Below are positions 43,719 through 62,668 of a stretch of DNA of 64,000 bases, piece after piece (position 1 is the stretch's first letter; every line of letters starts with the position of its first letter). The DNA lies in the NCBI GenBank assembly GCA_900319905.1, contig ONQB01000011.1, positions 62,889 to 126,888 on the forward strand. Reading direction: 5' to 3'. The notes beneath the pieces are model-generated. The model was not told the DNA's origin and made no database searches. It saw nothing but the letters and a program-made list of their open reading frames with translations. This stretch comes from an uncultured Prevotella sp. Its GTDB lineage: Bacteria; Bacteroidota; Bacteroidia; Bacteroidales; Bacteroidaceae. A program made the position numbers and the translations under genes.

Positions 43719-43726
43719 CGAAGTTA
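43719..43726 (-). promoter_or_regulatory. -7 box of the amylase gene
   Basis: On the minus strand TAACTTCG (one mismatch to TAnnTTTG) lies 80 nt upstream of the ATG. The same TAACTTCG occurs at malQ. No good -33 element is present. Confidence 0.5.
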
Positions 43727-43752
43727 CGTCAATTCTTTGAATTGTGCTTTGC

Positions 43753-43766
43753 TTGACATATATCAA
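43753..43766. promoter_or_regulatory. CRP/FNR-like site of the amylase promoter
   Basis: TTGACATATATCAA fits TTGAY-N4-RTCAA and is centred 33.5 bp upstream of the amylase -7 box. Confidence 0.5.
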
Positions 43767-43782
43767 CATCTATTTATAGGAT

Positions 43783-43794
43783 GCAATCGGTTGC
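43783..43794. promoter_or_regulatory. LacI-type operator of the amylase promoter
   Basis: GCAATCGGTTGC is a near-palindrome with its centre 62.5 bp upstream of the amylase -7 box, the same distance as at susC, lacI and malQ. Confidence 0.65.
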
Positions 43795-43907
43795 ATGAGG
43801 CTTGTTTTTCACAATTGTCAGCCAGCGGAGCTATGCTGTTGCACAAGACCGGTCGTATGCCTTCTTTGTGAAAATGAGTGTATAATTGGTGCAATAAGGC
43901 CTTTTTA

Positions 43908-43934
43908 TTGACTTGCGTCAATGACATAAGTCAA
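43908..43934. promoter_or_regulatory. Tandem CRP/FNR-like sites of the susC promoter
   Basis: TTGACTTGCGTCAA (43908-43921) and ATGACATAAGTCAA (43921-43934) share one base. Both match TTGAY-N4-RTCAA with at most one change. Confidence 0.55.
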
Positions 43935-43944
43935 AAACGATCAT

Positions 43945-43956
43945 GCAAACGTTTGC
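43945..43956. promoter_or_regulatory. LacI-type operator of the susC promoter
   Basis: GCAAACGTTTGC is a perfect 12-bp palindrome with the central CG usual for LacI-family operators. Its centre is 61.5 bp upstream of the -7 box at 44012. Confidence 0.75.
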
Positions 43957-44011
43957 GCTAGTAAATTGGCAAATAGCAGGAAAAATAAAATAAGACACTC
44001 TAAATTCTTCT

Positions 44012-44019
44012 TAAATTTG
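44012..44019 (+). promoter_or_regulatory. -7 box of the susC operon
   Basis: TAAATTTG matches TAnnTTTG exactly, 67 nt upstream of the ATG. No TTTG is seen 19-23 nt further upstream, which fits an activator-dependent promoter. Confidence 0.6.
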
Positions 44020-44085
44020 CAGCAACAATAGCAGAAAAGTCTAAATAACTAATAGAAATTATATACCAATCTTAATATAAAGCAA

Positions 44086-47000
44086 ATGATGAAGCAGGTA
44101 AAAATCAAGATGCCTCGCAGAATGTTGGTCCTCACAGGAGGATTACTTCTTGCGGCAAGTTCCTGGGCACAGACTGGTGTCATCAAGGGACAAGTGAAAG
44201 ATGCTTCCGGCGAGCCCGTCATGGGTGCTACCATCCAGGCTGGCGGTAAGACCGTCGGCATTACTGACATGGATGGTAACTATCAGGTGAAGGTTGCTCC
44301 GGGCACCAAGCTCACTATTACTTATTTGGGCATGGCCCCGCAGACGGTCGATGCCACCGACAACGCCGTCATCACCATGCACGATGACGCCAAGGCCTTG
44401 AACGAGGTGGTGGTGATCGGCTACGGCGTGGCCAAGAAAAACGACCTCACCGGCTCGGTGACGGCCATCAAGCCCGACGAGAAGAACCATGGACTCGTGA
44501 CCAACGCGCAGGAGATGATGCAGGGCAAGATTGCCGGTGTCAACGTTACGACGACCAACGGTCAGCCGGGCGCCGGAGCTACCATCCGCATACGTGGCGG
44601 CTCGTCACTGAACGCTTCCAACGACCCGTTGATCGTCATCGACGGCCTGCCCATGGACAACCAGGGCGTGAAGGGTTTGTCGAACCCCCTCTCCATGGTC
44701 AACCCTAACGATATCGAGAGCTTCACCGTCTTGAAGGACGCTTCCGCCACCGCCATCTACGGTAGCCGCGGCTCCAACGGTGTCATCATCATCACTACGA
44801 AGAAGGGCCGCAAGGGCTCGGCTCCCAAGGTGAGCTACAACGGCAACGTGTCGATGGCCACCATTCCCGAGTACATCGACGTGCTCGACGGCAATGAGTA
44901 CCGTGCGCTTGTGAAGCAGCTCTATCCCGGTAAGACCGTTGACGGCAAGTATGTGGCATCCGCTCGCGAGAACCTCTTAGGCTCAGCCAACACCGACTGG
45001 CAGAAGCAGATTTACCACACGGCCATCTCTACCGACCATAATATTACGGTGTCGGGCGGCCTGAAGAACATGCCTTACCGCGTCAGCGCGGGCTTCACCG
45101 ATGAGAACGGTATCCTGAAGACTTCCAACTTCCAGCGTACCACCGCCAGCGTCAACCTCAGCCCCACGCTGTTTGACGATCACCTGACGTTCAACATCAA
45201 CGGCAAGTTCATGTATGCGCACAATCGCTACGCCAACACCGATGCCATCGGGGCGGCCGTGAGCTTCGACCCCACACAGCCCGTTTATTCGAGCGACGCT
45301 AAGTTCGCCAACTTCAACAACTACTGGGAGTGGACGCAGGCCGCCTCGTTTGGCGACAGCGCTTGGCCACTGACCAAGATTGATCTGGCAACAGCCAACC
45401 CAGTGGCTTTGATCAATGGCAACCTCGACCGCGCCAACTCCTATGACTACATGGGCAACGTGGAGGCCGACTATAAGATTCATGGCTTTGAGGACCTTCA
45501 CCTTCACGTGAATGCCGCCGGCGACTGGTCAAACGGTAAGCAGCGTCAGGACGTGCAGCCCTGGAGCCCGGCCAACCTCTACTATGGTTTCCACAAGACC
45601 GACCACGAGAACAAGTACAACCTCAACTTCAGCGCCTACGCTCAGTATCTGAAGGACTTCGCCAAGACGCAGCACTTTGACATCATGGGCGGTTATGAGT
45701 GGCGTCATGAGAAGTACTGGGGCGACTACAACCAGTTCGGTCTTTATCCCTCAACTAATAAGGCCAACGCCGGAAAGAAATACAACGAGCAGAACAGTGA
45801 GTGGAAATCAGAGCACTACCTCGTCTCCTTCTACGGCCGTATGAACTACTCGGCCTTCGACCGCTACATGCTCACCGCCACGTTCCGCGCCGACGGCAGC
45901 TCGCGCTTCCCGAAGAACAACCGCTGGGGTTACTTCCCATCAGTGGCTTTGGGCTGGAAGATCAACAATGAGCCTTTCCTGCGCAGCGTCAAGCAGATCG
46001 ACGAGTTGAAGCTCCGCCTCGGCTGGGGTCAGACCGGCCAGCAGGAGGGCATCGGCGACTATCTATACTTCCCTGTCTATCAGGAGCCTACCAGCACACA
46101 GGCCCTCTATCCCGCAGCCGGCGACGGTAAGCAGTACATCCCACAGGGTTACAACGAGAATCTGAAGTGGGAGACCACCACCACCTATAACGCCGGTATC
46201 GACGTGAGCCTTTGGAACAGTCGCGTAAGCGCCAGCTTCGATGTGTATAAGCGTAAGACCACCGACCTGCTGATGAATGCTCCTGTGGCTTCTCTGTCCA
46301 ACTTCGGTAACCGCATCATGAAGAACATCGGTTCGATGGAGAACACCGGTTTTGAGGCCGCCATCACCGTGCGACCCATTCAGACTGCCGACTGGCACTG
46401 GGAACTTACCGGCAACGCTACTTACAACAAGAACAAGATTACTGAGCTTGCAGGCGACGGCCAGCCCATTGAGTATGGCGATGTAGGCCTCGGTAAGGGC
46501 AACTACGGTCAGGCTCACCAGGTGGGCGAGCCCGTCGGATCGTTCTTCGTCTATCAGCAGGTTTATGATGTCAACGGGAAGCCTTTGCAGGGTGTCGTCG
46601 TCGACCGCAATGCTGACGGTGTCATCGACTACAACGATAAGTACTACTACAAGTCATCCGTGGCTCCCTGGCTCTTCGGCCTGAGCTCACGCCTGCAGTA
46701 TAAGAACTGGGATCTTGGTATCGGTCTGCGCGCCAGCGTGGGCAACTATGTCTTCAACAAGATGAAGATGGGTTATCGCTCACCTTATTACATTGGCACC
46801 GGCACGGGCTATATGAGCAACACCATGCCTTATTCGCTTGAAGTGAACTATCTCAACGGCGAGAAGATTTACGATGCACTGAGCGACTACTTCGTGGAGA
46901 ACGCCTCGTTCCTGAAGTGCGACAACATCACGCTGGGCTACTCGTTCACCAACCTCTTCCACGGAGGCTCCTACAATGGTCTGAGTGGACGCATCTACGC

Positions 47001-47127
47001 CAGCTGCACCAATGTGTTCACTATCACCAACTATTCAGGTCTTGACCCGGAGGTCAACGGCGGTATCGACGGCACGGTCTATCCGCGTCCGAGAACGTTC
47101 CTCATTGGTCTGAACCTTGATTTCTAA
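44086..47127 (+). CDS. susC: SusC family TonB-dependent outer-membrane receptor
   Basis: This 1013-residue outer-membrane importer takes up malto-oligosaccharides with SusD as its lid. The signal peptide (MLVLTGGLLLAASSWAQ) is followed by a carboxypeptidase-regulatory-like domain (GVIKGQVKDASGEPVMGATI), the SusC signature region (LNEVVVIGYGVAKKNDLTGS), a plug domain ending SRGSNGVIIITTKKG, and the 22-strand barrel. The starch role rests on its neighbours: SusD, SusE- and SusF-like lipoproteins and a divergent amylase. First gene of the operon, under the regulated promoter at 44012. Confidence 0.95.
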   Translation: MMKQVKIKMPRRMLVLTGGLLLAASSWAQTGVIKGQVKDASGEPVMGATIQAGGKTVGITDMDGNYQVKVAPGTKLTITYLGMAPQTVDATDNAVITMHDDAKALNEVVVIGYGVAKKNDLTGSVTAIKPDEKNHGLVTNAQEMMQGKIAGVNVTTTNGQPGAGATIRIRGGSSLNASNDPLIVIDGLPMDNQGVKGLSNPLSMVNPNDIESFTVLKDASATAIYGSRGSNGVIIITTKKGRKGSAPKVSYNGNVSMATIPEYIDVLDGNEYRALVKQLYPGKTVDGKYVASARENLLGSANTDWQKQIYHTAISTDHNITVSGGLKNMPYRVSAGFTDENGILKTSNFQRTTASVNLSPTLFDDHLTFNINGKFMYAHNRYANTDAIGAAVSFDPTQPVYSSDAKFANFNNYWEWTQAASFGDSAWPLTKIDLATANPVALINGNLDRANSYDYMGNVEADYKIHGFEDLHLHVNAAGDWSNGKQRQDVQPWSPANLYYGFHKTDHENKYNLNFSAYAQYLKDFAKTQHFDIMGGYEWRHEKYWGDYNQFGLYPSTNKANAGKKYNEQNSEWKSEHYLVSFYGRMNYSAFDRYMLTATFRADGSSRFPKNNRWGYFPSVALGWKINNEPFLRSVKQIDELKLRLGWGQTGQQEGIGDYLYFPVYQEPTSTQALYPAAGDGKQYIPQGYNENLKWETTTTYNAGIDVSLWNSRVSASFDVYKRKTTDLLMNAPVASLSNFGNRIMKNIGSMENTGFEAAITVRPIQTADWHWELTGNATYNKNKITELAGDGQPIEYGDVGLGKGNYGQAHQVGEPVGSFFVYQQVYDVNGKPLQGVVVDRNADGVIDYNDKYYYKSSVAPWLFGLSSRLQYKNWDLGIGLRASVGNYVFNKMKMGYRSPYYIGTGTGYMSNTMPYSLEVNYLNGEKIYDALSDYFVENASFLKCDNITLGYSFTNLFHGGSYNGLSGRIYASCTNVFTITNYSGLDPEVNGGIDGTVYPRPRTFLIGLNLDF

Positions 47128-47170
47128 TTCTTCAGTGGTTACTGTTCAATATATTTAATAGAATAATATT

Positions 47171-48832
47171 ATGAAATTCAATATAAAGAAAGCTTTCCCT
47201 ATCCTTGGCTTAGCCATGACCTTAGGTATGAGCTCTTGCGTCAATGACTTGGATGTCAAGCCTATTGACCCCCGCCTGAACACCCAGGTGGATGCCAGCA
47301 AGCTTTTCAATAAGATGTATGCCGAGTTCGTCTTCGAGGGCAAAGGCCCGGGCGAGTCGGAGCTTGACCTCGGCGACGCTGGTCTGTCGGTGCTGTACCG
47401 TCTGCTGTGGAATGCCAACGAGCTGACCACCGACGAGGCCATCTGCGGATGGACCGATAAGGGTGTCGCTGAGTTCAGTAAGAACTCCTTCACCGCTGCC
47501 AACGAGAGTCTTTACGGACTGTGGTGGCGTCTCAACTTCGGTGTGTCTATCTGCAACCAGTATCTCAAGGAGTGTGCTGACTACGACAAGACGATGACGG
47601 CGGAGGCTCACTTCATGCGCGACCTTTACTATTATTATCTGCTCGACAACTTCGGCAACCCCTCTTTCTCGGAGACCATGCCTGACCCCGATCCGAAGCA
47701 GATCAAGAGTGCCGACCTCTACAACTTCATCGTGAAGGACCTGGAGGAGAATATGGGCAACATGCTCCCGCCTTCTGTACGCAAGAAGGGTGAGAAGAAC
47801 TACTCGCGTGCCGACCAGAGCGCAGCCTGGATGCTCCTGGCCCGCCTCTATCTCAATGCCGAGAAGTACACCGGCAAGGCTGAGTGGGCCAAGGCAAAGG
47901 AATATGCCGACAAGGTCATCAAGCAGTCAGGACGCACGCTCTGGGAGGGCGACAACGCCACTACCCACCGCAGTGCCAACGGCAAGTATTCTGCTTACCA
48001 GATGCTCTTCATGGCCGACAACGACCAGACGGGTGCTTACAATGAATGCATCTTCGGCTTCGCCCTCGATGGTGGCACGGCTGCCTCCTGGGGCGCTTCC
48101 ACGTTCCTCCATGGTTCTACATGGGATGCGAATATGGCTGCCGACTATCCTCAGAAGTCTTCGCAGGCTTGGGGTGGTAACCGCACACGTGTAGATTTGG
48201 TGAAGAAGTTCATCAGCCTTACCGACCTGAACAGCCTCGACTCCTGGACTCCTGAGACCATCACCAAGGCCGCCGGTGACGACCGCGCCCTGCTCTATGG
48301 TGACAATGCTGACGGAAGCCACGGTAAGAAAGACCGTAAATATACCAACGACGATATTGCGACGTTTGCCGATGGTATCGCTACAACTAAGTTCACCAGC
48401 GACCGCTCCGATGATGGCCCCACAGCTGTCTCTGACCACTGCGACAACGATATCATGCTGATGCGTCTGCCTGAGGCCTATTACATCTATGCTGAGGCTG
48501 AGGCTCGCGAGGCCGGATCAGAGGTGACGCTCACTGAGGGTACCCGTCTCATTAATGAGGTACGCAAGCGTGCCAACAACAACAACCTGCTTTCGTCCTA
48601 CACGCTGGACGAGCTGCTCGACGAGCGTGCCCGTGAGTTCTACTTCGAGGGGCTGCGCCGTACCGACCTCATCCGCTACGGATACTTCGGCAACAGCAAC
48701 TACACCTGGCAGTGGAAAGGCGGCGTGCAGGAGGGCGGCAAATTCCCGTCTTATTTCAACATCTTCCCCATCCCGCAGACGGAACTTGGTACCAACCACA
48801 ACCTCAAGCAGAATCCGGGTTATGCTGGATAA
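47171..48832 (+). CDS. susD: SusD/RagB family starch-binding lipoprotein
   Basis: This 553-residue surface lipoprotein pairs with SusC. The lipobox (LGMSSC, Cys23) ends the signal peptide. The tetratricopeptide-like SusD fold is supported by LYGLWWRLNFGVSICNQYL, AEAHFMRDLYYYYLLDNFGN, the ADQSAAWMLLARLYLNAEKY helix pair and the C-terminal LDELLDERAREFYFEGLRRT. It starts 43 bp after susC. Which residues bind glucan cannot be read with confidence. Confidence 0.94.
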   Translation: MKFNIKKAFPILGLAMTLGMSSCVNDLDVKPIDPRLNTQVDASKLFNKMYAEFVFEGKGPGESELDLGDAGLSVLYRLLWNANELTTDEAICGWTDKGVAEFSKNSFTAANESLYGLWWRLNFGVSICNQYLKECADYDKTMTAEAHFMRDLYYYYLLDNFGNPSFSETMPDPDPKQIKSADLYNFIVKDLEENMGNMLPPSVRKKGEKNYSRADQSAAWMLLARLYLNAEKYTGKAEWAKAKEYADKVIKQSGRTLWEGDNATTHRSANGKYSAYQMLFMADNDQTGAYNECIFGFALDGGTAASWGASTFLHGSTWDANMAADYPQKSSQAWGGNRTRVDLVKKFISLTDLNSLDSWTPETITKAAGDDRALLYGDNADGSHGKKDRKYTNDDIATFADGIATTKFTSDRSDDGPTAVSDHCDNDIMLMRLPEAYYIYAEAEAREAGSEVTLTEGTRLINEVRKRANNNNLLSSYTLDELLDERAREFYFEGLRRTDLIRYGYFGNSNYTWQWKGGVQEGGKFPSYFNIFPIPQTELGTNHNLKQNPGYAG

Positions 48833-48880
48833 TGAGTATTTTAGATAGAAGAGTCTAACTGACACAATGATTAAATGATT

Positions 48881-49795
48881 ATGAAAAAGATATTTTCATT
48901 GGCGATGATGCTTGTGAGCATTCTTGCGATGTTCACGGCCTGTGACGAGGACAGGGACTCCAACCCTGTCATCAAGTCGCCTACAACATTCACCATCAAC
49001 CAGTCGCCTGTGGCCGACCAGTACATCCAGTTGGCTAAGGGCAACAACGTGAACCTCACGTGGTCGCAGCCCGACTACGACTATAACGCTTTCGCCACTT
49101 ATAAGATTCAGGTGGGGCTTGTCGGAAACGACGGCAAAGTGACCTGGAACATGAAGGACGGTAAGCCCAAGTTCTTGGCTTCTACTTATACTAAGGCCAA
49201 TTCCAACATCGACGGTGAGGAGATTGCCGCCGCTATCTGCGAGCTCGATGGTTTCAAGGATAAGACAGAGTATGTAGACAAAGGCTATCGCGAGGTGGCA
49301 CTCCGTGTCTATTCCTGCATCGAGACCTCTATGGGTGAGGAGATCGCCGGCACAGGCATCATGTCGTCCAACTATGCCACGTTCAAGCACATGGCAGCCT
49401 ACAACGCTGTGAAGAGCCCAGGGTTCATCTATATCGTCGGTAGCTTGGATGGCTGGAAAGAGCCTAACGCGGGTAATGCCGATTATTATAAGGACTGGCG
49501 CCTGTTCGAGAACGAGGACGGTATCGACTCCAAGGAATACCACGGAACCTTCGAAGTTCCTGCCGGTGACCTGCTTTTCCGCTTCTATGCTGCCCTGACT
49601 GGATGGGATGCCGACTCGTACGGCTCTCAGAAGGATGACAGTCCGGTAGATGTTTCCTTTGATGCCTCCGGCTCTTATGAAGGCAAGCTGGTCAAGGGTA
49701 AAGGTTCCTACCAATTCGCCGGATTCCCGGGCGGCAAGGTGAAGATCACCGTCAACATGAAGAAGAATACGGTTAAAGTAGAAGTTGTCAAATAA
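48881..49795 (+). CDS. SusE-like starch-binding outer-membrane lipoprotein
   Basis: This 304-residue lipoprotein has a signal peptide with lipobox MFTAC. The N-terminal part resembles the SusE Ig-like domain (FTINQSPVADQYIQLAKGNNVNLTW is its start, given here only in part as NVNLTWSQPDYD). The C-terminal part is a SusE/SusF-type starch-binding domain (FIYIVGSLDGWKEPN, with the aromatic GW pair). It is shorter than B. thetaiotaomicron SusE, with probably one binding domain. An ATG two codons upstream (48875) is also possible. It lies 48 bp after susD. Confidence 0.85.
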   Translation: MKKIFSLAMMLVSILAMFTACDEDRDSNPVIKSPTTFTINQSPVADQYIQLAKGNNVNLTWSQPDYDYNAFATYKIQVGLVGNDGKVTWNMKDGKPKFLASTYTKANSNIDGEEIAAAICELDGFKDKTEYVDKGYREVALRVYSCIETSMGEEIAGTGIMSSNYATFKHMAAYNAVKSPGFIYIVGSLDGWKEPNAGNADYYKDWRLFENEDGIDSKEYHGTFEVPAGDLLFRFYAALTGWDADSYGSQKDDSPVDVSFDASGSYEGKLVKGKGSYQFAGFPGGKVKITVNMKKNTVKVEVVK

Positions 49796-49812
49796 CTCTA
49801 AACGCAACAACA

Positions 49813-51342
49813 ATGAAAAAGATAAGTTTATATATGATAGCTCTCCTGAGCGCCGTCCTGACGGGTTGTAGCGACAACTACGACCCGGAGGTAGGTCCGC
49901 AGGCCAACCAGCAGGAGAGCCCGGTCAAGGTGAGCGATGCTTCCGTCACCAATTCCGTTGGTACCATTGACCTTACCAAGCTCATCAATGAGACCACGCA
50001 CTCAGAGACCCCGATTGCCTTCGGTAAGGCTACGGTCAAGGAGGGTGCCATGCCCGCCAACACCGTGCTGAAGGCAGAGGTGGAGGTGTCAAACACTGAG
50101 GACTTCGCCAAGTCGGCCACCGTCTCCACGACGATGAACGACACCACGAACGTCTTCTCCGTGTCGCCCACAGAGTTAGAGAATGCCTGGTTCAACAACA
50201 TCACCAAGAACCCGGCCACCACGAAGTTGTATTATCGCACCATTCTCTATACGGTGACCAAGGACGATGCCGCCGCGCGCATCGGCCAACCGGGCGTGGA
50301 CTTCTTCTCGCCTTCCAACACGACGCTCACCCCGCTCAATAAGGTGAGTATCGCCAAGGCTTACTACATCCTTGGGGGTCCTAACAGCGACTGGGCTGCT
50401 TCTGCCACCAACCGCAGCATCAAGTTCAGCCACAGCGACAAGGACGTGTATGAGGATCCTGTCTTCACCGTTACCTTCGATGCTGCTGCCAGTGGCGACA
50501 CATGGTTTGCCATCGCTGATGACGCTGCTTGCGATGCAGTCACGAACGGTGACTGGTCTCAAGTCTACGGCATTGTCGGCGGCAAGAATGATGCTACCGA
50601 GGGTAAGATAGACCGCCGTGCTGTGCTTGGTGCCGACAACTCTTTCAAAGTGCCTGAGGGTGCCAAGAAGATCCGTGTCACCCTTGACATGATGGAAGGC
50701 ACGTTCAAGGTCGAGGCCATCAACTTCAATACTGTGGTTTATTTCCGCGGAGCCACCAACGGCTGGGGCGACGGAGCGCAGAAGCTCGGCCTTACCGATG
50801 AGGCCAAGGGTATCTATACCGGCTACGTGTATTGCGCCGACCCGAATGGCTGGGGCAATGAGTTCAAGCTTGCCAAGGATGCATCCGATTGGAATAAGGG
50901 CGAGTACAACAGCACTAATGTGACTGTCTCCGGTGACATTACAGCCAAGGACGGTGGCAACTTTATAGCTGCCAAGGGCGAGGGGCTCTATTATCTCGAG
51001 CTCGACGCTGCCAATATGACCCTGAAAGCCACGAAGATTACCAACATGAACCTTGTGGGCGGCTTCAACGGCTGGAACCAGGCTGACGATGCCCAGCAGA
51101 TGAAGTGGGATGCCAAGCACTACTGCTTCGTTATGACCAACGCCGCCGTCACGGCCGATGGATGGAAGTTCACGGCAAACAATGACTGGGTCATCAACCT
51201 CGGTGGCAATGACACGACGGAACCGTCATCGAAGATTAGTGATTTGATACCCGGCGGCAAGAACCTGAACGTGGTGGGCAAGACCATCAGGCTCTACCCT
51301 TGCCGTACCAATACAGATAAGATTTACGCAACGGTTGAATAA
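49813..51342 (+). CDS. SusF-like starch-binding outer-membrane lipoprotein
   Basis: This 509-residue lipoprotein has lipobox LTGC near residue 19. After an N-terminal domain it carries at least two, probably three, SusE/SusF-type carbohydrate-binding repeats; VVYFRGATNGWGDGAQKL (about 312) and MNLVGGFNGWNQADDAQQM (about 414) are the clear ones, each with a conserved NGW. The repeats hold glucan chains at the surface for SusC/SusD. It lies 17 bp after the SusE-like gene. Confidence 0.85.
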   Translation: MKKISLYMIALLSAVLTGCSDNYDPEVGPQANQQESPVKVSDASVTNSVGTIDLTKLINETTHSETPIAFGKATVKEGAMPANTVLKAEVEVSNTEDFAKSATVSTTMNDTTNVFSVSPTELENAWFNNITKNPATTKLYYRTILYTVTKDDAAARIGQPGVDFFSPSNTTLTPLNKVSIAKAYYILGGPNSDWAASATNRSIKFSHSDKDVYEDPVFTVTFDAAASGDTWFAIADDAACDAVTNGDWSQVYGIVGGKNDATEGKIDRRAVLGADNSFKVPEGAKKIRVTLDMMEGTFKVEAINFNTVVYFRGATNGWGDGAQKLGLTDEAKGIYTGYVYCADPNGWGNEFKLAKDASDWNKGEYNSTNVTVSGDITAKDGGNFIAAKGEGLYYLELDAANMTLKATKITNMNLVGGFNGWNQADDAQQMKWDAKHYCFVMTNAAVTADGWKFTANNDWVINLGGNDTTEPSSKISDLIPGGKNLNVVGKTIRLYPCRTNTDKIYATVE

Positions 51343-51413
51343 AGTCTAATGCACGATAGGGAGGAATGGCTTTGTGTCATCCTTCCTATTTAGCTTCTAA
51401 TAATTGGAATTTT

Positions 51414-53810: not shown

Positions 53811-53923
53811 TTTTCTTGGCGTAGGTTTGTTGCAAAAAATAAGGGAAAATGGGCGATGGGGCAAGGAAAAGGGCAAAAACTTTGCAAAAAAGGAGGAAGT
53901 GGGGGCGAAAGCGGTGGGCGTTT

Positions 53924-54043
53924 AGCAAGACGCTGCGCAGCAGCGTCCTACAGAACGGGGCGAGAACGGGGCGAGGGCAGGGAGAGAACGGGGCAATGGC
54001 GCGTGTTCAGTAAGACGCTGCTCAGCAGCGTCCTACAGAACAG
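53924..54043. repeat. Pair of REP-like hairpins beside the RAYT gene
   Basis: Two direct copies of a roughly 38-nt element lie 85 bp apart with three differences. Each contains a perfect 8-bp hairpin GACGCTGC / GCAGCGTC with a 3-nt loop (53929-53947 and 54014-54032), followed by CTACAGAAC. This is the usual form of REP sequences that RAYT proteins bind. Confidence 0.8.
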
Positions 54044-54072
54044 GGCACGGACAGGTGGAAATAACGCTTTGT

Positions 54073-54084
54073 GCAAAGGTTTGC
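54073..54084. promoter_or_regulatory. LacI-type operator of the regulator's own promoter
   Basis: GCAAAGGTTTGC differs at one central base from the perfect palindrome GCAAACGTTTGC at susC. Its centre is 61.5 bp upstream of the -7 box at 54140. Confidence 0.7.
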
Positions 54085-54098
54085 ATGACTTATGTCAA
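54085..54098. promoter_or_regulatory. CRP/FNR-like site of the lacI promoter
   Basis: ATGACTTATGTCAA adjoins the LacI-type operator and continues as TTTTAT, an extension also seen at malQ. Confidence 0.5.
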
Positions 54099-54139: not shown

Positions 54140-54147
54140 TATTTTTG
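54140..54147 (+). promoter_or_regulatory. -7 box of the lacI-MFS operon
   Basis: TATTTTTG matches TAnnTTTG exactly, 39 nt upstream of the ATG. No -33 TTTG is seen. Confidence 0.6.
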
Positions 54148-54186
54148 CACTCAGCAATTACGGTTGCCTAAAAACCATTGCATGAT

Positions 54187-55212: not shown

Positions 55213-55266
55213 CCATCCGTCGTAACCCGTCTAATCATTAACGAATTAAATACAGACATTATATCC

Positions 55267-56589
55267 ATGAAACAGAAACCTGATTTAAGCCGGCTGGCGT
55301 TGTTCAATCTCAGCTTCGGCTTCTTTGGTGTGCAGATTGCTTATGCGCTGCAGAGTAGTAATATCTCCCGCATCTTCGCCACGATGGGCGCCGACCCCAA
55401 GAGCCTCAGCTTTTTCTGGGTGTTGCCCCCGTTGATGGGCATGATCGTGCAGCCCATTGTCGGCATGCTCAGCGACCGCACGTGGTGCCGTTTCGGTCGT
55501 CGCATCCCGTACCTCATCGTCGGTGCCATCGTCGCCGTCATCGTGATGACGCTGTTGCCCAATGCCGGCAGCCTGAGCAACACGTTCTGGGTGGCCATGA
55601 CGCTTGGCGCCGTTATTCTGATGTTCCTCGACACCTCTCTCAACATGGCCATGCAACCGTTCAAGATGATGGTTGGCGACGTGGTCAATGAGAAGCAGAA
55701 AGGTCTGGCCTATGCCATCCAGAGTTTCCTGTGCAACCTCGGTCAGGTGGTGGGTTTCTCCCTGCCGTTCCTCATGTCGTATATCGGCCTGAGCACCGAC
55801 GCCTCCCACGGCGTGCCCACCTCGCTGAAGGTGGCGTTCTACGTGGGTGCCGTCATCCTCATCGTCTGCGTCATCTACACCTGTGTCAACGTCCGTGAGA
55901 TGCCGCCAAAGGAATATGCCGAGTATCACGGCACCTCCGAAGAGAAGGAAGACCACGTCAACCTCATCCAGCTTCTGCGCGACGCCCCGGGCAACTACTG
56001 GCGCGTGGCGCTGGTACAGTTCTTCTGCTGGTTCGCTTTCCTGTTTATGTGGAACTATACCACCGGTGCCATTGCCGACACTGTGTGGCACACCACCGAT
56101 GCCAAGTCGGCCGACTTCCAGGCAGCCGGCGACTGGGTGGGCATTGTCTTTGCCATCCAGTCTGTGGCTAGCGTGCTGTGGGCCATGGTGCTTCCGGCTC
56201 TTGAGCGTCGCTTCGGTCTGAAGGCCGCCTATTCCGTCAGCCTTATCATTGGCGGCGCTGGCTTTGCCCTCGTGCCGTTCATGCCCGACCAGTGGACGTT
56301 GTTCATACCGTTTGCCCTCATCGGTTGCGCCTGGGCTGCCATGCTGGCCCTGCCGTTTACCATTGTCACCAATGCGCTGGAGGGCCGTCCCCACATGGGC
56401 ACGTACCTTGGTCTGTTCAACTGCTCGATCTGTCTGCCGCAGATCATCGCCGGTCTCACCGGTGGTTTCTTCCTCATGCTCGTTGGCGAGCATCAGTACA
56501 ACATGATGATCGTGGCAGGTGTGTTGCTCGTCTTAGGTGCCGTGGCCGTGAAGGGGATAAAGACCTCATCAACCGATTCCCAGGAATAA
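55267..56589 (+). CDS. MFS sugar transporter (maltose/sucrose SLC45-like)
   Basis: This 440-residue major-facilitator protein has 12 helices. The N-terminus FNLSFGFFGVQIAYALQSSNI and IVQPIVGMLSDRTWCRFGRRIPY (the loop 2-3 motif) are typical of the glycoside-pentoside-hexuronide/SLC45-like transporters that carry maltose or sucrose in many Bacteroidetes. It follows the LacI gene by 54 bp with no promoter visible. It would move malto-oligosaccharides from the periplasm to the cytoplasm, where MalQ acts. Confidence 0.88.
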   Translation: MKQKPDLSRLALFNLSFGFFGVQIAYALQSSNISRIFATMGADPKSLSFFWVLPPLMGMIVQPIVGMLSDRTWCRFGRRIPYLIVGAIVAVIVMTLLPNAGSLSNTFWVAMTLGAVILMFLDTSLNMAMQPFKMMVGDVVNEKQKGLAYAIQSFLCNLGQVVGFSLPFLMSYIGLSTDASHGVPTSLKVAFYVGAVILIVCVIYTCVNVREMPPKEYAEYHGTSEEKEDHVNLIQLLRDAPGNYWRVALVQFFCWFAFLFMWNYTTGAIADTVWHTTDAKSADFQAAGDWVGIVFAIQSVASVLWAMVLPALERRFGLKAAYSVSLIIGGAGFALVPFMPDQWTLFIPFALIGCAWAAMLALPFTIVTNALEGRPHMGTYLGLFNCSICLPQIIAGLTGGFFLMLVGEHQYNMMIVAGVLLVLGAVAVKGIKTSSTDSQE

Positions 56590-56629
56590 GACATACAGAC
56601 TTACACAATCATTTCGCTTATATGTCAAG

Positions 56630-56717
56630 GTGTGGCGGTCGCCTCACTTATTTGTGGCGGTCGCCGCAGATGGGTGTGACGACCGCCACAGTTGTTTGTG
56701 ACGACCGCCACAGCTTG
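56630..56717. repeat. Four 22-nt repeats, two in each orientation of a GGCGGTCG core
   Basis: Four consecutive 22-nt units (56630-56651, 56652-56673, 56674-56695, 56696-56717) all start GTGTG or TTGTG. In the first two the core reads GGCGGTCGCC, in the last two GACGACCGCC, so the core is inverted while the 22-nt register is kept. It lies between the MFS gene and purL. Confidence 0.85.
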
Positions 56718-56825
56718 GCGTTACGTCCATATCGCTTTGTGACATGGGATGGAGGGGACTGCCGCATTTGTGGTCCAGGCTCATAATTTTTATAGCTTTT
56801 CGCGCTCAGTTCGTTAAAATCTTAT

Positions 56826-56833
56826 TAACTTTG
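56826..56833 (+). promoter_or_regulatory. -7 box of purL
   Basis: TAACTTTG matches TAnnTTTG exactly, 38 nt upstream of the ATG. Confidence 0.65.
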
Positions 56834-56871
56834 CAATTGTAATAGTCACATTCTTATAAATCGAACAGATT

Positions 56872-59800
56872 ATGATTCTTTTCTTCAAGACTCCCAAGGA
56901 GAACATCATTGCCACTGAGATTGACCATAAGCCCAGTGCAGAGGAGACTAAGGCCCTTTGCTGGCTGTATGGCGACGCTTCATTGCTCGACGCCGAGCAG
57001 CTCGACGGATACTTCGTCGGTCCGCGCCGTGAGATGATTACGCCTTGGAGTACAAATGCCGTTGAGATCACGCAAAACATGAGTCTCAGCGGCATTTCGC
57101 GTATAGAGGAGTTCTTCCCCGTAGCCAGCGAGACAGCTGAGCACGACCGCATGTTGCAGCGCATGTACAATGGACTGGACCAGGCCGTCTTCACCGTCGA
57201 CCACCAGCCTGAGCCTATCAAGCATGTGGAGAACATCGAGAAGTACAATGAGGAGGAGGGACTGGCACTGAGCCCCGAGGAGATAGCCTACCTCCATAAG
57301 ATTGAGAAGGAGAACGGACGTCCGCTCACCGACAGTGAGATCTTTGGCTTTGCGCAAATCAATTCTGAGCACTGCCGCCACAAGATCTTCGGCGGTACGT
57401 TCATCATCGACGGCGAGGAGCGTCCGTCGAGCCTCTTCGCCCTCATCAAGAAGACGACGAAGGATCATCCTGGTAAGATACTTTCCGCTTACAAAGATAA
57501 TGTGGCCTTTGCCCAAGGCCCCGTCGTGGAGCAGTTCGCTCCCGAGGACCAGACCACGTCCGACTTCTTCAAGGTGAAGCCCATCGAGAGCGTCATCTCG
57601 CTGAAGGCCGAGACCCATAACTTCCCTACCACGGTGGAGCCTTTCAACGGTGCTGCCACGGGTACGGGTGGTGAGATCCGCGACCGCATGGGCGGTGGCA
57701 CCGGCTCATGGCCCATCGCCGGCACGGCCGTGTATATGACCGCCTATCCGCGTCTTGGCGACCGCTCGTGGGAACAGCAGATCGCACCGCGCCCCTGGCT
57801 CTATCAGAGTCCGGAGGAGATTCTCATCAAGGCTTCCAATGGTGCCAGCGACTTCGGCAATAAGTTCGGACAGCCGCTCATCACAGGTTCGGTGCTCACC
57901 TTCGAGTATCAGACCACATCTACTGATAGCGAGCAGTTGGGCAACGGCCAGCCCGTGCCTGCCGACCAGCAGCCGGCTGCCGGTTCTGTCTATGCCTACG
58001 ATAAGGTCATCATGCTGGCCGGTGGCGTTGGCTACGGCAAGAAGCGTGACTGTCTGAAGAAGGAACCGCAGCCCGGCAACGACATCGTCGTTGTGGGTGG
58101 CGACAACTACCGCATCGGTCTTGGTGGCGGTTCTGTGTCTTCTGTCGATACCGGTCGCTATGGTACGGCTGTGGAGCTCAATGCCGTGCAGCGTGCCAAC
58201 CCTGAGATGCAGAAGCGTGCCTACAACCTCGTGCGTGCCCTGGTGGAGGCCGACAACAACCCTGTGGTGTCCATTCACGACCATGGTTCGGCCGGACACC
58301 TCAACTGCCTGTCGGAGCTCGTCGAGGACTGTGGCGGTGAGATCGACATGACCAAACTGCCTATTGGCGACAAGACGCTTTCGGCCAAGGAGATTATTGC
58401 CAACGAGAGTCAGGAGCGCATGGGTCTTCTCATCGACGAGAAGCACCTCGATCGCGTGGAGAAAATTGCTGCCCGTGAGCGCGCGCCGTTCTACGTCGTC
58501 GGTCATACCACGGGTGATGCCCATTTCAGCTTCGTGCAGGGTGACGGCGTGAAGCCCTTCGACCTTGACGTAGCGCAGATGTTCGGCCACTCGCCGAAGA
58601 CGGTGATGCGCGACGAGACGGTGGTGCACCATTATGAGAATGTGACTTACACCACTGATAAGCTTGACGAATACGTCAACAACGTGCTGCAGCTTGAGGC
58701 TGTGGCCTGCAAGGACTGGCTGACCAATAAAGTCGACCGCTCGGTGACGGGTAAGATTGCCCGTCAGCAGACGCAGGGTGTCATCCAGCTGCCGCTGTCC
58801 GACTGTGGCGTCGTCGCCCTCGACTATCGTGGCAAGGCGGGCATCGCTACGGCTCTTGGTCATGCACCGCAGGCTGGCATGGCCGACCCCGCTGCCGGCA
58901 GCGTGCTGTCGGTGGCTGAGAGTCTGACCAACATCGTCTGGGCACCGGTGGCTACCGACAAGGACAACCCCAGTGAGGTGCAGAACCTCAACCTCTCGGC
59001 CAACTGGATGTGGCCCTGCCGCTCGCAGAAGGGTGAGGACGCACGTCTTTACGATGCCGTGCAGGCACTGAGCGACTTCTGCTGTGAGCTGGGTCTGAAT
59101 GTGCCTACGGGTAAGGACTCTCTCTCGCTGTCGCAACAGTATCCCGACGGTAAGAAGATCATCGCTCCGGGCACTGTCATCGTCACCGCCGGCGCTGAGG
59201 TGTCCGACGTGCGCAAGGTGGTGTCGCCCGTCGTCGTCAACGATAAGAACTCCTCCTTATATTATATAGACTTCAGCTTCGACGAGCAGCGCCTTGGCGG
59301 TTCTGCCTTTGCGCAGACACTGGGCCGCATCGGCTCGGATGTGCCGACGGTGAAGAACGCAGAGTACTTCGCCGACTGCTTCAATGCCATCCAGACGCTT
59401 ATCAAGAAAGGCTGGGTGATGGCCGGCCACGACATCTCTGCCGGTGGTCTCATCACAACCCTGCTCGAGATGACCTTCGCCAACACCGAAGGCGGTCTGC
59501 ATGTCAATCTGCATGACGTTGAGCCTGAGAGCGACGACGTGGTGAAGATGCTCTTCGCAGAGAATCCTGGTGTCGTCATTCAGGTCTCTGACACCCACAA
59601 GCGTGAGGTGAAGGAATACCTTGAGGACAACGGCATTGGCTTCGCCAAGATTGCTTACCCCACACCCGACAACCGTCAGATTGTCGTGGTGAAGGACGCT
59701 TGGGAGCATGCCTTCGACATCGACGCCCTGCGTGACACCTGGTATCACACCTCATATCTCCTCGATGCCCATCAGAGCATGAACGACATGGCCCGCAAGC

Positions 59801-60678
59801 GGTGGCACAACTACAAGAAGCAACCGCTGGAGTTTAAGTTCGGCGCTGACTTCAAGGGTACGTTTGCCTCTCTCGGTCTCAACCCCGACCGTTGGAAGGA
59901 CGCAGACGCAAAGAAGGGCAAGTCTCCTGTGGCTGCCATCATCCGTGAGAAGGGTACCAATGGCGACCGTGAGATGGCCTACACGCTGTGGCTGGCCGGC
60001 TTTGAGGTGAAGGACGTGATGATGACCGACCTCATCAGCGGCCGTGAGACCTTGGAGGAGGTCAATATGATCGTGTTCTGTGGAGGTTTCTCCAATAGCG
60101 ACGTGCTGGGTTCGGCCAAGGGCTGGGCCGGTGCCTTCCTCTACAATCCGAAGGCCAAGGAAGCCCTCGATAAGTTCTATGCCCGTAAGGATACACTGTC
60201 GCTCGGCATCTGCAATGGCTGTCAGCTCATGGTGGAGCTCAATCTCATCAACCCCGAGCATCAGCATCGTGCCCACCTCGTGCACAATGTCAGCCAGAAG
60301 TTCGAGAGCGCCTTCCTCGGTCTGTCCATCCCGCAGAACAACAGCGTGATGCTCGGTTCGCTCAGTGGTGACAAGCTTGGCATCTGGGTGGCTCACGGAG
60401 AGGGCCGTTTCTACCTGCCCGAACCGGAGGACCACTACAACATTGTGGCTAAGTACAACTACGCTGAGTATCCCGGCAATCCTAATGGATCTGCTTACAA
60501 CGTGGCTGGTATCTGCTCGGCCGATGGCCGTCATCTTGCCATGATGCCGCACCCCGAGCGTGCCATCTTCCCTTGGCAGAACGCTTACTATCCCGCCGAC
60601 CGTCGCAACGACGACGTCACACCGTGGATTGAGGCCTTCGTCAATGCCCGGAAGTGGATTGAGAAGAAGATAGGTTAA
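56872..60678 (+). CDS. purL: Phosphoribosylformylglycinamidine synthase
   Basis: This 1268-residue single-chain FGAM synthase is of the large proteobacterial/eukaryotic type. It converts FGAR to FGAM with glutamine as nitrogen donor in purine synthesis. INSEHCRHKIFGG and KAETHNFPTTVEPFNGAATGTG (given in part: ETHNFPTTVEPFNGA) mark the ATP-binding synthase halves. The C-terminal glutaminase has its nucleophile Cys in LGICNGCQLM (about residue 1110) and the HPERAIF segment. It is flanked by repeat-rich intergenic regions on both sides and has its own promoter. Confidence 0.97.
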   Translation: MILFFKTPKENIIATEIDHKPSAEETKALCWLYGDASLLDAEQLDGYFVGPRREMITPWSTNAVEITQNMSLSGISRIEEFFPVASETAEHDRMLQRMYNGLDQAVFTVDHQPEPIKHVENIEKYNEEEGLALSPEEIAYLHKIEKENGRPLTDSEIFGFAQINSEHCRHKIFGGTFIIDGEERPSSLFALIKKTTKDHPGKILSAYKDNVAFAQGPVVEQFAPEDQTTSDFFKVKPIESVISLKAETHNFPTTVEPFNGAATGTGGEIRDRMGGGTGSWPIAGTAVYMTAYPRLGDRSWEQQIAPRPWLYQSPEEILIKASNGASDFGNKFGQPLITGSVLTFEYQTTSTDSEQLGNGQPVPADQQPAAGSVYAYDKVIMLAGGVGYGKKRDCLKKEPQPGNDIVVVGGDNYRIGLGGGSVSSVDTGRYGTAVELNAVQRANPEMQKRAYNLVRALVEADNNPVVSIHDHGSAGHLNCLSELVEDCGGEIDMTKLPIGDKTLSAKEIIANESQERMGLLIDEKHLDRVEKIAARERAPFYVVGHTTGDAHFSFVQGDGVKPFDLDVAQMFGHSPKTVMRDETVVHHYENVTYTTDKLDEYVNNVLQLEAVACKDWLTNKVDRSVTGKIARQQTQGVIQLPLSDCGVVALDYRGKAGIATALGHAPQAGMADPAAGSVLSVAESLTNIVWAPVATDKDNPSEVQNLNLSANWMWPCRSQKGEDARLYDAVQALSDFCCELGLNVPTGKDSLSLSQQYPDGKKIIAPGTVIVTAGAEVSDVRKVVSPVVVNDKNSSLYYIDFSFDEQRLGGSAFAQTLGRIGSDVPTVKNAEYFADCFNAIQTLIKKGWVMAGHDISAGGLITTLLEMTFANTEGGLHVNLHDVEPESDDVVKMLFAENPGVVIQVSDTHKREVKEYLEDNGIGFAKIAYPTPDNRQIVVVKDAWEHAFDIDALRDTWYHTSYLLDAHQSMNDMARKRWHNYKKQPLEFKFGADFKGTFASLGLNPDRWKDADAKKGKSPVAAIIREKGTNGDREMAYTLWLAGFEVKDVMMTDLISGRETLEEVNMIVFCGGFSNSDVLGSAKGWAGAFLYNPKAKEALDKFYARKDTLSLGICNGCQLMVELNLINPEHQHRAHLVHNVSQKFESAFLGLSIPQNNSVMLGSLSGDKLGIWVAHGEGRFYLPEPEDHYNIVAKYNYAEYPGNPNGSAYNVAGICSADGRHLAMMPHPERAIFPWQNAYYPADRRNDDVTPWIEAFVNARKWIEKKIG

Positions 60679-60686
60679 GGGGTTTT

Positions 60687-60852
60687 GAAGTCCCGAAGTT
60701 CCGATGAGAAGTCCCGAAGTCCCGAAGTTCCGAAGTCCCGTCAAATGGCTTGCGGGCAAAAGGACTCTTCGAAAACAATTGATGCAGCAGTTCAGTGCTT
60801 AGCCATATGACGGTACTTCGGAACTTCGGAACTTCGGAACTTCCGTACTTCT
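60687..60852. repeat. Inverted-repeat element with 8-nt iterations (GAAGTTCC type)
   Basis: A left arm (about 60687-60746) of iterated GAAGTCCC/GAAGTTCC and a right arm (about 60802-60852) of ACTTCGGA iterations are imperfect inverted copies, ending in GTCAAATGGC and its counterpart GCCATATGAC. The arms are about 55 bp apart. It starts 8 bp after the purL stop. It is built like the element at 52623-52761. The 20 bp at 60802-60821 recur exactly at 61332-61351. Confidence 0.8.
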
Positions 60853-60894
60853 TAATTGTTTCCTAATATTCTTTCCTTCTAAATTCAAATAAAC

Positions 60895-61275
60895 ATGACA
60901 ACCAGCTTCAAAGAATTGACAGTATGGAAAGAAGCCCATGAGTTCGTGCTAAAGGTATATAAAACCACGAGAATCTTTCCGGAGTGGGAGAGGTTTGCAC
61001 TCTCATCACAATTCCAGCGGGCTGCCGTATCTATAGCTGCGAATATTGCTGAGGGTTATCGAAAGATTGGGAAGCCAGACAAGTTGAAGTTTCTGAATAT
61101 TGCTCAGGGCAGTCTTGAGGAATGCAGATATTACATCATCCTCGCTAAGGATCTGGGGTATATTAATGTACACACTCATGACGTGTTAGAAGAGGAAGCT
61201 GATCATGTCAGTAGACTCCTTACAGCTTATTGCAAACCTATCCTTGCAGAAAAATATAAAAATGATGTCAAATAA
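60895..61275 (+). CDS. Four-helix bundle protein (S23/IVP family)
   Basis: This 126-residue protein is of the family first found in intervening sequences of 23S rRNA genes (S23, four-helix bundle). FKELTVWKEAHEFVLKVYK, LSSQFQRAAVSIAANIAEGY and QGSLEECRYYIILAKDLGY are the three family hallmarks. Its function is unknown; relatives occur as free genes and in diversity-generating retroelements. Here it lies between repeat copies and overlaps the chromate transporter gene by 14 bp, so it may have arrived with the repeats. Confidence 0.9.
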   Translation: MTTSFKELTVWKEAHEFVLKVYKTTRIFPEWERFALSSQFQRAAVSIAANIAEGYRKIGKPDKLKFLNIAQGSLEECRYYIILAKDLGYINVHTHDVLEEEADHVSRLLTAYCKPILAEKYKNDVK

Positions 61276-61909
61276 CGCTTCTCAAAACAACCCTTCTTCC
61301 GACGGCCACTTCTCCAGCCAGTCTTCCAATGGCCATATGACGGTACTTCGGGACTCCGGTACTTCGGGACTTCCCAAATACCCCCTCCTCTTCGCTACTT
61401 TTTTCAAGATCGGCGCCTTCACGTTGGGTGGCGGCTACGCCATGATTCCCATCATCGAGGAGGAGGTGGTCAACAAGCACCACTGGGTGAGCAAGGGGGA
61501 CTTTCTCGACCTCATCGCCATTGCACAGAGCTGTCCGGGAGTGTTCGCCGCCAATATCGCCACGTTCATCGGCTATCGTCTGCGCCACACGAAGGGAGCG
61601 CTGTGCACGACGCTTGGTGCCGTGTTGCCGTCGTTCCTCATCATCCTCATCATCGCCATGGTGCTCAGGCAGTTTATGTCCATTCATTGGATCGCCGCCA
61701 TGTTCCTGGGCATCCGGCCGGCGGTCGTGGCGCTCATCGCGGTGCCTACGTTCAACCTCGCCAAGAGCGCGAAGATAGGTCTTCACAACGTCTGGATTCC
61801 CGTAGCCTGTGCCGTTCTCATCTGTGCCTTAGGAGTCAATCCCATCTGGGTGATTATCGCCGCCGGGGTAGGAGGGTACCTCTATGGCCGACTAACCGAT
61901 CATGCATAG
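61262..61909 (+). CDS. Chromate transporter, first half-size subunit
   Basis: This protein of up to 215 residues is of the short CHR family (ChrA half). FKIGAFTLGGGYAMIPIIEEE and AQSCPGVFAANIATFIGYR are the family signature, and about six helices follow. The start is uncertain: the ATG at 61262 overlaps the S23 gene and gives about 40 N-terminal residues of Ser/Asn-rich sequence, part of it translated from the 20-bp repeat at 61332-61351; an ATG at 61337 inside that repeat gives 190 residues. The second half is encoded 10 bp downstream; together they would form an antiporter of full size. Confidence 0.85.
   Translation: MMSNNASQNNPSSDGHFSSQSSNGHMTVLRDSGTSGLPKYPLLFATFFKIGAFTLGGGYAMIPIIEEEVVNKHHWVSKGDFLDLIAIAQSCPGVFAANIATFIGYRLRHTKGALCTTLGAVLPSFLIILIIAMVLRQFMSIHWIAAMFLGIRPAVVALIAVPTFNLAKSAKIGLHNVWIPVACAVLICALGVNPIWVIIAAGVGGYLYGRLTDHA
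61332..61351. repeat. 20-bp direct repeat of 60802-60821
   Basis: GCCATATGACGGTACTTCGG occurs exactly at 60802-60821 and 61332-61351, 530 bp apart, with the S23 gene between them. The downstream copy lies inside the open frame of the chromate transporter and is followed by more iterations of the same kind. Confidence 0.9.
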
Positions 61910-61919
61910 CAAGTAACTT

Positions 61920-62495
61920 ATGATTTTTCTCCAACTCTTCTGGACCTTCTTCAAGATAGGTCTCTTCGGCTTCGGTGGCGGCTATGGCATGCTGTCGCTC
62001 ATACAGATGGAGACCGTGCGCCATCATCACTGGCTCTCCTCGGCCGACTTCACCAACATCGTTGCCATCAGTCAGATGACGCCAGGGCCGGTGGGCATCA
62101 ACTCAGCCACCTATTGCGGCTACACCGCCGTCCACAATGCCGGCATGGGCAGCACGCTGGCCGTGCTGGGCTCGTTCTGTTCCACGTTTGCACTCGTCCT
62201 GCCGTCCTTCGTGTTGATGATCGTCATCAGCAAGATGTTTATGAAATACATGAAGACAAAAGCTGTGCAACACGTCTTCTTGGGCCTGCGCCCCACCGTC
62301 GTCGGACTGCTGGCCGCAGCCACCATCCTTTTGCTCAACAAGGAGAACTTCGGTGATCCGTCGGTCAACCCATGGCAGTTCATCGTCAGCCTCTTCCTCT
62401 TCATCGCCACCTTCGTGGGCACCATGTGGATGAAAATCAACCCCATCCGCATGATCTGCTATGCCGCTGTGGCCGGCATTTTGCTGTTCTACTAA
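61920..62495 (+). CDS. Chromate transporter, second half-size subunit
   Basis: This 191-residue CHR family membrane protein is homologous to the preceding one: FWTFFKIGLFGFGGGYGMLSLIQ and ISQMTPGPVGINSATYCGY are the signature segments. Pairs of half-size CHR proteins in tandem usually have opposite topology and act as a heterodimer. Chromate export is proved for some members only, so the natural substrate may be another anion. It follows the first half by 10 bp. Confidence 0.9.
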   Translation: MIFLQLFWTFFKIGLFGFGGGYGMLSLIQMETVRHHHWLSSADFTNIVAISQMTPGPVGINSATYCGYTAVHNAGMGSTLAVLGSFCSTFALVLPSFVLMIVISKMFMKYMKTKAVQHVFLGLRPTVVGLLAAATILLLNKENFGDPSVNPWQFIVSLFLFIATFVGTMWMKINPIRMICYAAVAGILLFY

Positions 62496-62592
62496 CCTTC
62501 TTCCCTTTGCCCTGTCCCGTCGTCGTGTCGCTGGTGTGACGCCGCCGACCGATGGTCGTGACGGTATGACTTTGATAGCCTTGTGGTGTGAT

Positions 62593-62604
62593 GCAATCGT
62601 TTGC
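62593..62604. promoter_or_regulatory. LacI-type operator of malQ
   Basis: GCAATCGTTTGC differs at one position from the perfect palindrome GCAAACGTTTGC. Its centre is 62.5 bp upstream of the malQ -7 box. Confidence 0.7.
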
Positions 62605-62628
62605 GCTTTTCTTTGTGCAACAAGCGTA

Positions 62629-62642
62629 ATGATATAAATCAA
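62629..62642. promoter_or_regulatory. CRP/FNR-like site of malQ
   Basis: ATGATATAAATCAA (TTGAY-N4-RTCAA with one change) continues as TTTTAT, the same extension as at the lacI site. Confidence 0.5.
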
Positions 62643-62660
62643 TTTTATGGGGTTTTTGAT

Positions 62661-62668
62661 TAACTTCG
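62661..62668 (+). promoter_or_regulatory. -7 box of malQ
   Basis: TAACTTCG (one mismatch to TAnnTTTG, identical to the amylase box) lies 25 nt upstream of the ATG at 62693. Confidence 0.5.

Follow-up and report, generated by a model that had tools for sequence, protein, structure and literature searches.

LacI-type operators at a fixed distance from the -7 box in starch loci of Prevotella: a predicted upstream activator

Starch regulation in the Bacteroidota is taught from SusR, and the LacI family is mostly thought of as a family of repressors. A Sus-type starch locus of an uncultured Prevotella sp., in which a LacI-family gene is accompanied by operator-like palindromes at a nearly constant distance upstream of four promoters, raises the question of what such a protein does from such a position. 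The locus lies on 64,000 nucleotides of contig ONQB01000011.1 (positions 62,889 to 126,888; assembly GCA_900319905.1, 86% complete), the whole of which is referred to here as the window. A first-pass annotation of this DNA had proposed a single regulon with a fixed upstream operator, and an activator rather than a repressor acting on it; the comparative data strongly support the former, and the latter is the best inference that sequence permits. Quite probably, the LacI-family protein is a dedicated dimeric activator of these fixed-spacing promoters that responds to maltose or a malto-oligosaccharide.

The four operators reported upstream of the amylase, susC, lacI and malQ genes are all present, three of them matching GCAAWCGKTTGC exactly and the lacI site with one mismatch (Table 1). 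Spacing is given from operator start to -7 box start unless stated as centre to box; by the latter measure, the earlier distances of 62.5, 61.5, 61.5 and 62.5 bp (amylase, susC, lacI and malQ) were reproduced. The boxes had been described as TAnnTTTG-like, which is exact for susC and lacI, whereas the TAACTTCG found at both amylase and malQ is one base off, and inspection by eye confirmed that a -33 TTTG is missing from all four promoters. If two mismatches are tolerated, the operator motif alone occurs in the window at close to the chance rate (31 matches; shuffled sequences give 22.4 ± 5.3, and six of 100 reach 31). In contrast, mononucleotide shuffling of the four downstream stretches, repeated 200,000 times, never placed a TAnnTTYG box in all four within a common 2-bp span. 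The significance of the window operators thus derives from their common spacing and its conservation, not from the operator motif alone.

In the corresponding intergenic regions of related genomes this spacing is kept, and at lacI and susC it is nearly universal. The genus sample comprised 60 genomes including the window's own, of which 50 hold a LacI ortholog of at least 62% identity, and up to 20 kb around the 49 orthologs other than the window's was compared. At lacI, an operator with no or one mismatch and an exact TAnnTTTG box at 66–69 bp occur in all 47 testable loci (the other two end too near the gene for a promoter test), which supports the suggested self-control of the regulator; at susC, the box stands at 67 or 68 bp in all 46 promoters with enough upstream DNA. 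Nine of 11 amylase genes have the operator, seven with an exact box and two with a one-change box. Operator-box promoters are absent at the genes for the MFS transporter (0/48 loci), susD (36) and susF (11), with weak, boxless operator matches at MFS in two stretches. The earlier claim that the regulator also controls the MFS gene therefore holds, most likely, through co-transcription with lacI, with which it is probably in one operon, and not through an operator-box promoter of its own. When the 121 exact operator-promoter pairs of the 49 loci are taken together (78 distinct operators, shared ones being counted for both genes), 106 have an exact TAnnTTTG box at +66 to +69, compared with 26 boxes that fall elsewhere in the ±200 bp counted, so far as the compared stretches extend. 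The sequences between operator and box have a median identity of 36–45% among pairs of equal spacing, against 29–33% when shuffled; the spacing is thus kept while the sequence drifts.

The same distance recurs beyond this sample. In a set of 80 named loci, overlapping partly with the genus genomes, an exact box lies at 66–69 bp at 78 of 79 lacI and 71 of 73 susC promoters, and 20 loci outside the genus but within the family, whose LacI proteins are 48–68% identical, have a box (the TTCG variant being accepted) at that distance at 19 of 20 lacI and 16 of 18 susC promoters. When the three overlapping sets are pooled and a span of 64–72 bp is searched, the distinct operator-to-box sequences with an exact box number 135 at lacI and 123 at susC, and every one measures 66–69 bp. 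The closest named relative of the regulator, from uncultured Prevotella isolate RUG137 (L113; 88% identity over the best segment), has the operator GCAATGGTTTGC at lacI, still 67 bp from the box; the nearest named species is Hallella multisaccharivorax, at 84%.

Full-genome searches were extended to relatives. Three complete genomes among them contain GCAAWCGNTTGC 16 times: the 12 intergenic sites (including a lacI/susC site of G045 that overlaps a 155-codon frame) all have a box, exact or with one change, at 67 or 68 bp, and the four intragenic sites have none at these distances. In 15 further near-complete genomes, GCAAWCGWTTGC was found 59 times compared with five for the reversed control pattern, and 43 distinct sites could be evaluated in their loci. 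A box, exact or with one change, at 67–69 bp accompanies 19 of the 20 sites at starch genes (lacI, susC, malQ, GH13 and GH97, the GH13 and GH97 labels resting on one Pfam-identified example each and otherwise on short motifs) but only five of the 23 elsewhere. The window's own genome additionally holds three GCAATCGATTGC sites and three intragenic sites, none with a box at 67 bp, and the GCAATCGATTGC sites (C15, C17 and C59) were for that reason not counted as regulon members. They lie at L031:4939, L032:5472 and L252:3761, and by eye C17 and C59 are near a GTGyACGyACAC palindrome that possibly belongs to another regulator.

In most relatives, lacI and susC are arranged divergently around one common operator, with a box about 67 bp off on each side; the operator is shared in this way in 42 of 45 loci of the genus set and 66 of 71 of the named set. 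The window genome and L113 differ in that lacI stands downstream of the sus genes with an operator of its own at 67 bp. A second operator within 600 bp is lacking at 47 of 51 primary sites and present at four.

The core promoters themselves are unusual in their -33 region. Of 122 operator promoters collected, 11 lacked a perfect box; among the remaining 111, a TTTG 22–26 bp upstream of the box occurs in four, compared with 12 of 36 control promoters predicted in the same loci (p = 8e-6). A weak -33 element would be expected of activator-dependent promoters, and the operator promoters are mostly without a -33 TTTG. At the place of that element, about -23 to -17 from the box, a G-N2-CA-N-C pattern (GTACAAC or GAACAAC) is conserved, most strongly at susC, where an A-tract accompanies it (operator promoters L064–L112).

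The regulator belongs to the LacI/GalR proteins by its domains (PF00356 at 57 bits and PF13377 at 109.3 bits, both above cut-off) and by the GCAAACGTTTGC-type site with central CG, with no or one mismatch, at its own promoter in the testable genus loci. Among the NCBIfam equivalogs (CytR, CcpA, PurR, MalI, Cra), 17 families match and none reaches its cut-off, and the PDB matches include PurR and, among the best, CcpA. With 341 residues the protein is as long as PurR (chain of 340) and shorter than LacI (360), so that, judged by length only, it has PurR/CcpA dimensions with no room for a tetramerisation helix. This PurR-like length, together with the scarcity of second operators, argues against a tetrameric, looping LacI and makes a directly activating dimer more likely than repression through looping.

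A comparison is offered by paralogs: at least 35 of the 60 genus genomes encode a second near full-length LacI match of 34–38% identity, possibly falling into several groups. The upstream regions of four such genes were compared: in three, GYAAACGTTTGC precedes a TAnnTTTG box by 30 bp and so lies over the -33 region (one of them also with a box at 22), and in the fourth no site was found even with two mismatches allowed. Nine distant loci of the phylum, with LacI proteins 39–42% identical, contain similar sites, none with a box at 66–69 bp, and in four of the nine a site lies no more than about 70 bp from the start codon of lacI. A similar operator core therefore sits at repressor-like places elsewhere.

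Taken together, these data suggest the following model. The LacI-family protein would be a dedicated regulator of starch and malto-oligosaccharide use whose dimer binds TGCAAACGTTTGCA, the centre of this operator lying 61.5–62.5 bp from the -7 box on its upstream side, beyond the core polymerase site and, given the centre-to-box spacing of about 62 bp, at about -73 from the predicted transcription start. From there it would recruit the polymerase, in class I manner, to promoters mostly devoid of a -33 TTTG; a single phased site ahead of the polymerase core, at 66–69 bp, is the arrangement seen at lacI and susC. The activating form probably carries maltose or a malto-oligosaccharide, as the target genes suggest, and the regulon would comprise the lacI-MFS operon itself, susC onward, amylase and malQ, as well as GH97 in some relatives. 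In most relatives, a single palindrome would act in both directions, on lacI and on susC simultaneously. Activation is inferred because the site lies outside the core promoter at one spacing across non-homologous promoters, because the -33 TTTG is scarce, because one operator serves two divergent promoters, and because second operators are rare and the paralog's site lies only 30 bp from the box. A bolder formulation, towards which the balance tips only slightly, is that in the Prevotella/Bacteroides family the LacI dimer has become a dedicated class I activator for which spacing acts as a code, 66–69 bp meaning "activate" and the 30 bp of the paralog's near-identical core "repress", and that one palindrome equidistant from two -7 boxes drives both divergent promoters, those of regulator and transporter, with positive feedback.

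An activator is not the usual expectation, as most characterised LacI-family proteins are repressors released by sugar. The protein at about -73 could accordingly block an alpha-CTD or an upstream activator until sugar releases it, which we consider unlikely. What lends this idea some substance is a second palindrome, TGAYnTAnRTCA, which had been overlooked in an otherwise correct description of operators and spacing, and which is found in all four window promoters near the operator, where it might be a blocked activator site; it also matches 35 times in 122 stretches from relatives (divergent stretches counted twice), more often than the 3.4 expected from uniform bases. Nevertheless, this palindrome is present at a minority of the relatives' promoters, whereas hardly any lacI or susC promoter departs from the operator spacing; moreover, blocking would not require the boxes to flank a common operator at one set distance, the -33 TTTG is scarce, looping partners are missing at most sites, and the paralog's site, by contrast, covers the -33 region. 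A dual regulator, in which the sugar-free form represses and the sugar-bound form activates from the same site, or which activates in one direction only, has precedent in Cra, which does both. CcpA too can repress or activate, and upstream sites of CcpA and of AraQ/MalR1 have been read as activator sites in the relevant passages of PMC6882875. The identical spacing on the lacI and susC sides speaks for the same action on both, which makes the dual version rather improbable here. Finally, the spacing might be an inherited neutral structure or a by-product of picking boxes near the operator: the loci come from related species, and several counts (named loci, other genera, the 15 genomes and the window) sought boxes only near the expected distance. 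The genus counts, in contrast, took wide ranges (0–140 and ±200 bp), the spacers have diverged, other genera keep the spacing, and non-homologous promoters (malQ, GH13, GH97) share it, which leaves this explanation with hardly any credibility.

Several observations nonetheless weigh against activation through one fixed-spacing rule. The malQ promoters, like those of GH13 amylase and GH97, keep to the rule less fully than lacI and susC: among 31 malQ promoters in the genus, an operator match is found in 23 and none in eight, the box at 66–69 bp is exact in 11 and has one change in nine, and three operator matches are boxless and no more than 48 bp from the start codon, while the 61 malQ genes of the named loci comprise 25 with an exact box, 11 with a near one, 15 with the operator only and ten without operator. 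Of 17 amylase genes in the named loci, nine lack the operator, seven have an exact box and one a near box. One GH13 site (L329) is the sole exception without a box among the 20 starch-gene sites, and the boxes at five of the 23 non-starch sites are exact, the other 18 having none. The 36 control promoters are predicted rather than mapped, and the -33 place of the operator promoters is not blank, given the G-N2-CA-N-C pattern, so that basal activity is possible. Related species are, furthermore, non-independent samples, and the regulator is patchy, being present at E 1e-75 or better in 28 of 151 genomes of the family (eight of the same genus) and 12 of 395 of the phylum.

The second palindrome resembles a binding site for a regulator of the Crp/Fnr type and would probably contribute global control, separate from the LacI rule. 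As the main determinant of these promoters it was rejected, given its variable distance to the box (31, 39, 54 or 90 bp) and its occurrence at a minority of the relatives' promoters. The source genome contains 27 such sites, against ten for the reversed control, and four of the 27 are in the window promoters. Of the 23 others, 22 were viewed: eight are inside open reading frames (ORFs) and 14 intergenic. Six of these 14 (sites outside the window being found in L350, L354, L356, L359, L367 and L032) have a TAnnTTTG box 72–74 bp off one side, which suggests a second fixed-distance regulator, and three have a box 20–23 bp off; an ORF of at least 100 codons starts within 500 bp on the box side at two of the six. 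The consensus wwwTATGTTnTAnAACATAwww given for BT4338 in the part of PMC6989115 consulted has the central TA in common with TGAYnTAnRTCA and differs in its half-sites.

How far is such an arrangement already known? SusR of Bacteroides thetaiotaomicron, which activates sus genes on maltose (PMC3878776, in part), does the job proposed here for the LacI-family protein and is a membrane protein of an unrelated family. The LacI-family sugar regulators KdgR, UxaR, UxmR and UxuR of Bacteroides, which govern uronate regulons, belong to the same phylum and protein family, and the passages on them in PMC3878776 give no fixed upstream spacing. B. fragilis and B. uniformis lack SusR, and their predicted sus loci contain predicted LacI-type regulators, an MFS transporter and GH65, according to passages of PMC11633381; the LacI-type gene and the MFS gene are present here as well, and these passages give no operator or spacing. 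The novelty first attributed to a LacI-type regulator in a Sus locus is lowered accordingly. The combination with GH65 also has a counterpart in the family: in one genus, LacI, MFS and GH65 (confirmed by Pfam in one locus) are accompanied by susC in the same stretch in all six loci listed, with operators 67–68 bp from the lacI and susC boxes. B. fragilis OsuR, which may be an orthologous LacI-type protein, is reported to be an activator mediating maltose induction (Spence et al., 2006). S. copri is without a complete starch Sus system according to the part of PMC11784079 consulted.

Outside the phylum, CcpA of Bacillus is a global regulator working with HPr-Ser-P, and the present protein likewise belongs to the LacI family and would act from upstream, but as a local regulator of starch genes with fixed spacing and a shared bidirectional operator. 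As an activator, CcpA is said to bind 14 bp upstream of the -35 element (quoted in PMC6882875, seen in excerpt). AraQ/MalR1 of Bifidobacterium resembles the present case as a LacI-type regulator of carbohydrate genes some of whose upstream sites are read as activator sites; these are in helical phase relative to the start and, in the passages of PMC6882875 concerned, have no particular promoter distance, unlike the fixed spacing described here. No description of a fixed operator-box spacing rule was found among the titles and abstract beginnings listed from an open-licence library.

The locus is of Sus type by virtue of its SusC and SusD proteins and its starch-active GH13 and GH77 enzymes, with the gene order GH13 amylase (minus strand), susC, susD, a pair of genes at the susE/susF position, an OmpA-like gene, lacI, MFS, purL, two ORFs and malQ (Table 1). 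The SusD-like protein remains below the cut-off of the NCBIfam SusD model (427 of 725 bits), and the two genes at the susE/susF position have no match in Pfam or NCBIfam. Directly upstream of the lacI promoter, positions 53850–54050 by eye contain GC-rich repeats with hairpin-like GCTGC-GCAGC units, which may mark an insertion of repeats where lacI was relocated.

Table 1. Promoter elements and genes of the starch locus, in window coordinates
Feature	Position	Strand	Remarks
LacI-type operator, amylase	43783..43794	-	exact match; 68 bp to box
LacI-type operator, susC	43945..43956	+	exact match, perfect palindrome GCAAACGTTTGC; 67 bp to box
LacI-type operator, lacI	54073..54084	+	GCAAAGGTTTGC, one mismatch; 67 bp to box
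LacI-type operator, malQ	62593..62604	+	exact match; 68 bp to box
-7 box, amylase	43719..43726	-	TAACTTCG; start 68 bp from operator start
-7 box, susC	44012..44019	+	TAAATTTG; start 67 bp from operator start
-7 box, lacI	54140..54147	+	TATTTTTG; start 67 bp from operator start
-7 box, malQ	62661..62668	+	TAACTTCG; start 68 bp from operator start
Crp/Fnr-like palindrome, amylase	43754..43765		39 bp from box
Two adjacent Crp/Fnr-like palindromes, susC	43909..43920 and 43922..43933		103 and 90 bp from box
Crp/Fnr-like palindrome, lacI	54086..54097		TGACTTATGTCA; 54 bp from box
Crp/Fnr-like palindrome, malQ	62630..62641		TGATATAAATCA; 31 bp from box
Alpha-amylase, GH13 with CBM26	41597..43639	-	Pfam
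SusC-like TonB-dependent transporter	44086..47127	+	Pfam, NCBIfam
SusD-like protein	47171..48832	+	best solved match SusD chain 3ck7, E 4e-84
Gene pair at susE/susF position	48875..49795 and 49813..51342	+	by position
LacI-family regulator, 341 aa	54187..55212	+	Pfam LacI and Peripla_BP_3
MFS sugar transporter	55267..56589	+	54 bp gap after lacI
4-alpha-glucanotransferase malQ, GH77 with CBM20	62693..64000, continues past window end	+	Pfam

Some operators of the relatives stand away from starch genes. At five sites (L193, L207, L211, L307 and L336), an operator with a box at 67–69 bp is followed by no ORF starting within 450 bp, the minimum ORF length being 120 codons for the first three and 80 codons for the last two. 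These orphan promoters make a LacI-controlled small RNA a candidate, and an Rfam search of three of the loci returned nothing up to E 0.5. A homolog of a DUF4230 gene is found no more than about 2.2 kb from the site in four of the five genomes; such a gene is within 1.5 kb of an orphan-type site in two of 30 loci, the distance being about 1.8 kb in G045 and about 2.1 kb in G012. A DNA search for such a conserved RNA matched 15 of 60 genomes, the source included, the others by pieces of 19–66 bases. At L319, L322 and L337–L340, GCAAACGTTTGC is found 141 bp before a repeated MRNNSKI-like gene that G029 and G010 have in several copies, perhaps a mobile element, and these sites have no box at 60–75 bp. 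Lastly, in front of a predicted beta-lactamase-family gene of G010 stands an operator with its box at 69 bp (L323:2025), a pairing that may be due to chance.

Within the family, wherever the regulator occurs, nearly all of the lacI and susC promoters examined obey the spacing rule. Such a rule would predict activation and help to name target genes from sequence, and with it the geometry of an activator at the -33/-7 promoters of Bacteroidota becomes directly testable. For gut and rumen Bacteroidota, the common operator of lacI and susC may moreover provide an engineerable, bidirectional promoter controlled by sugar.

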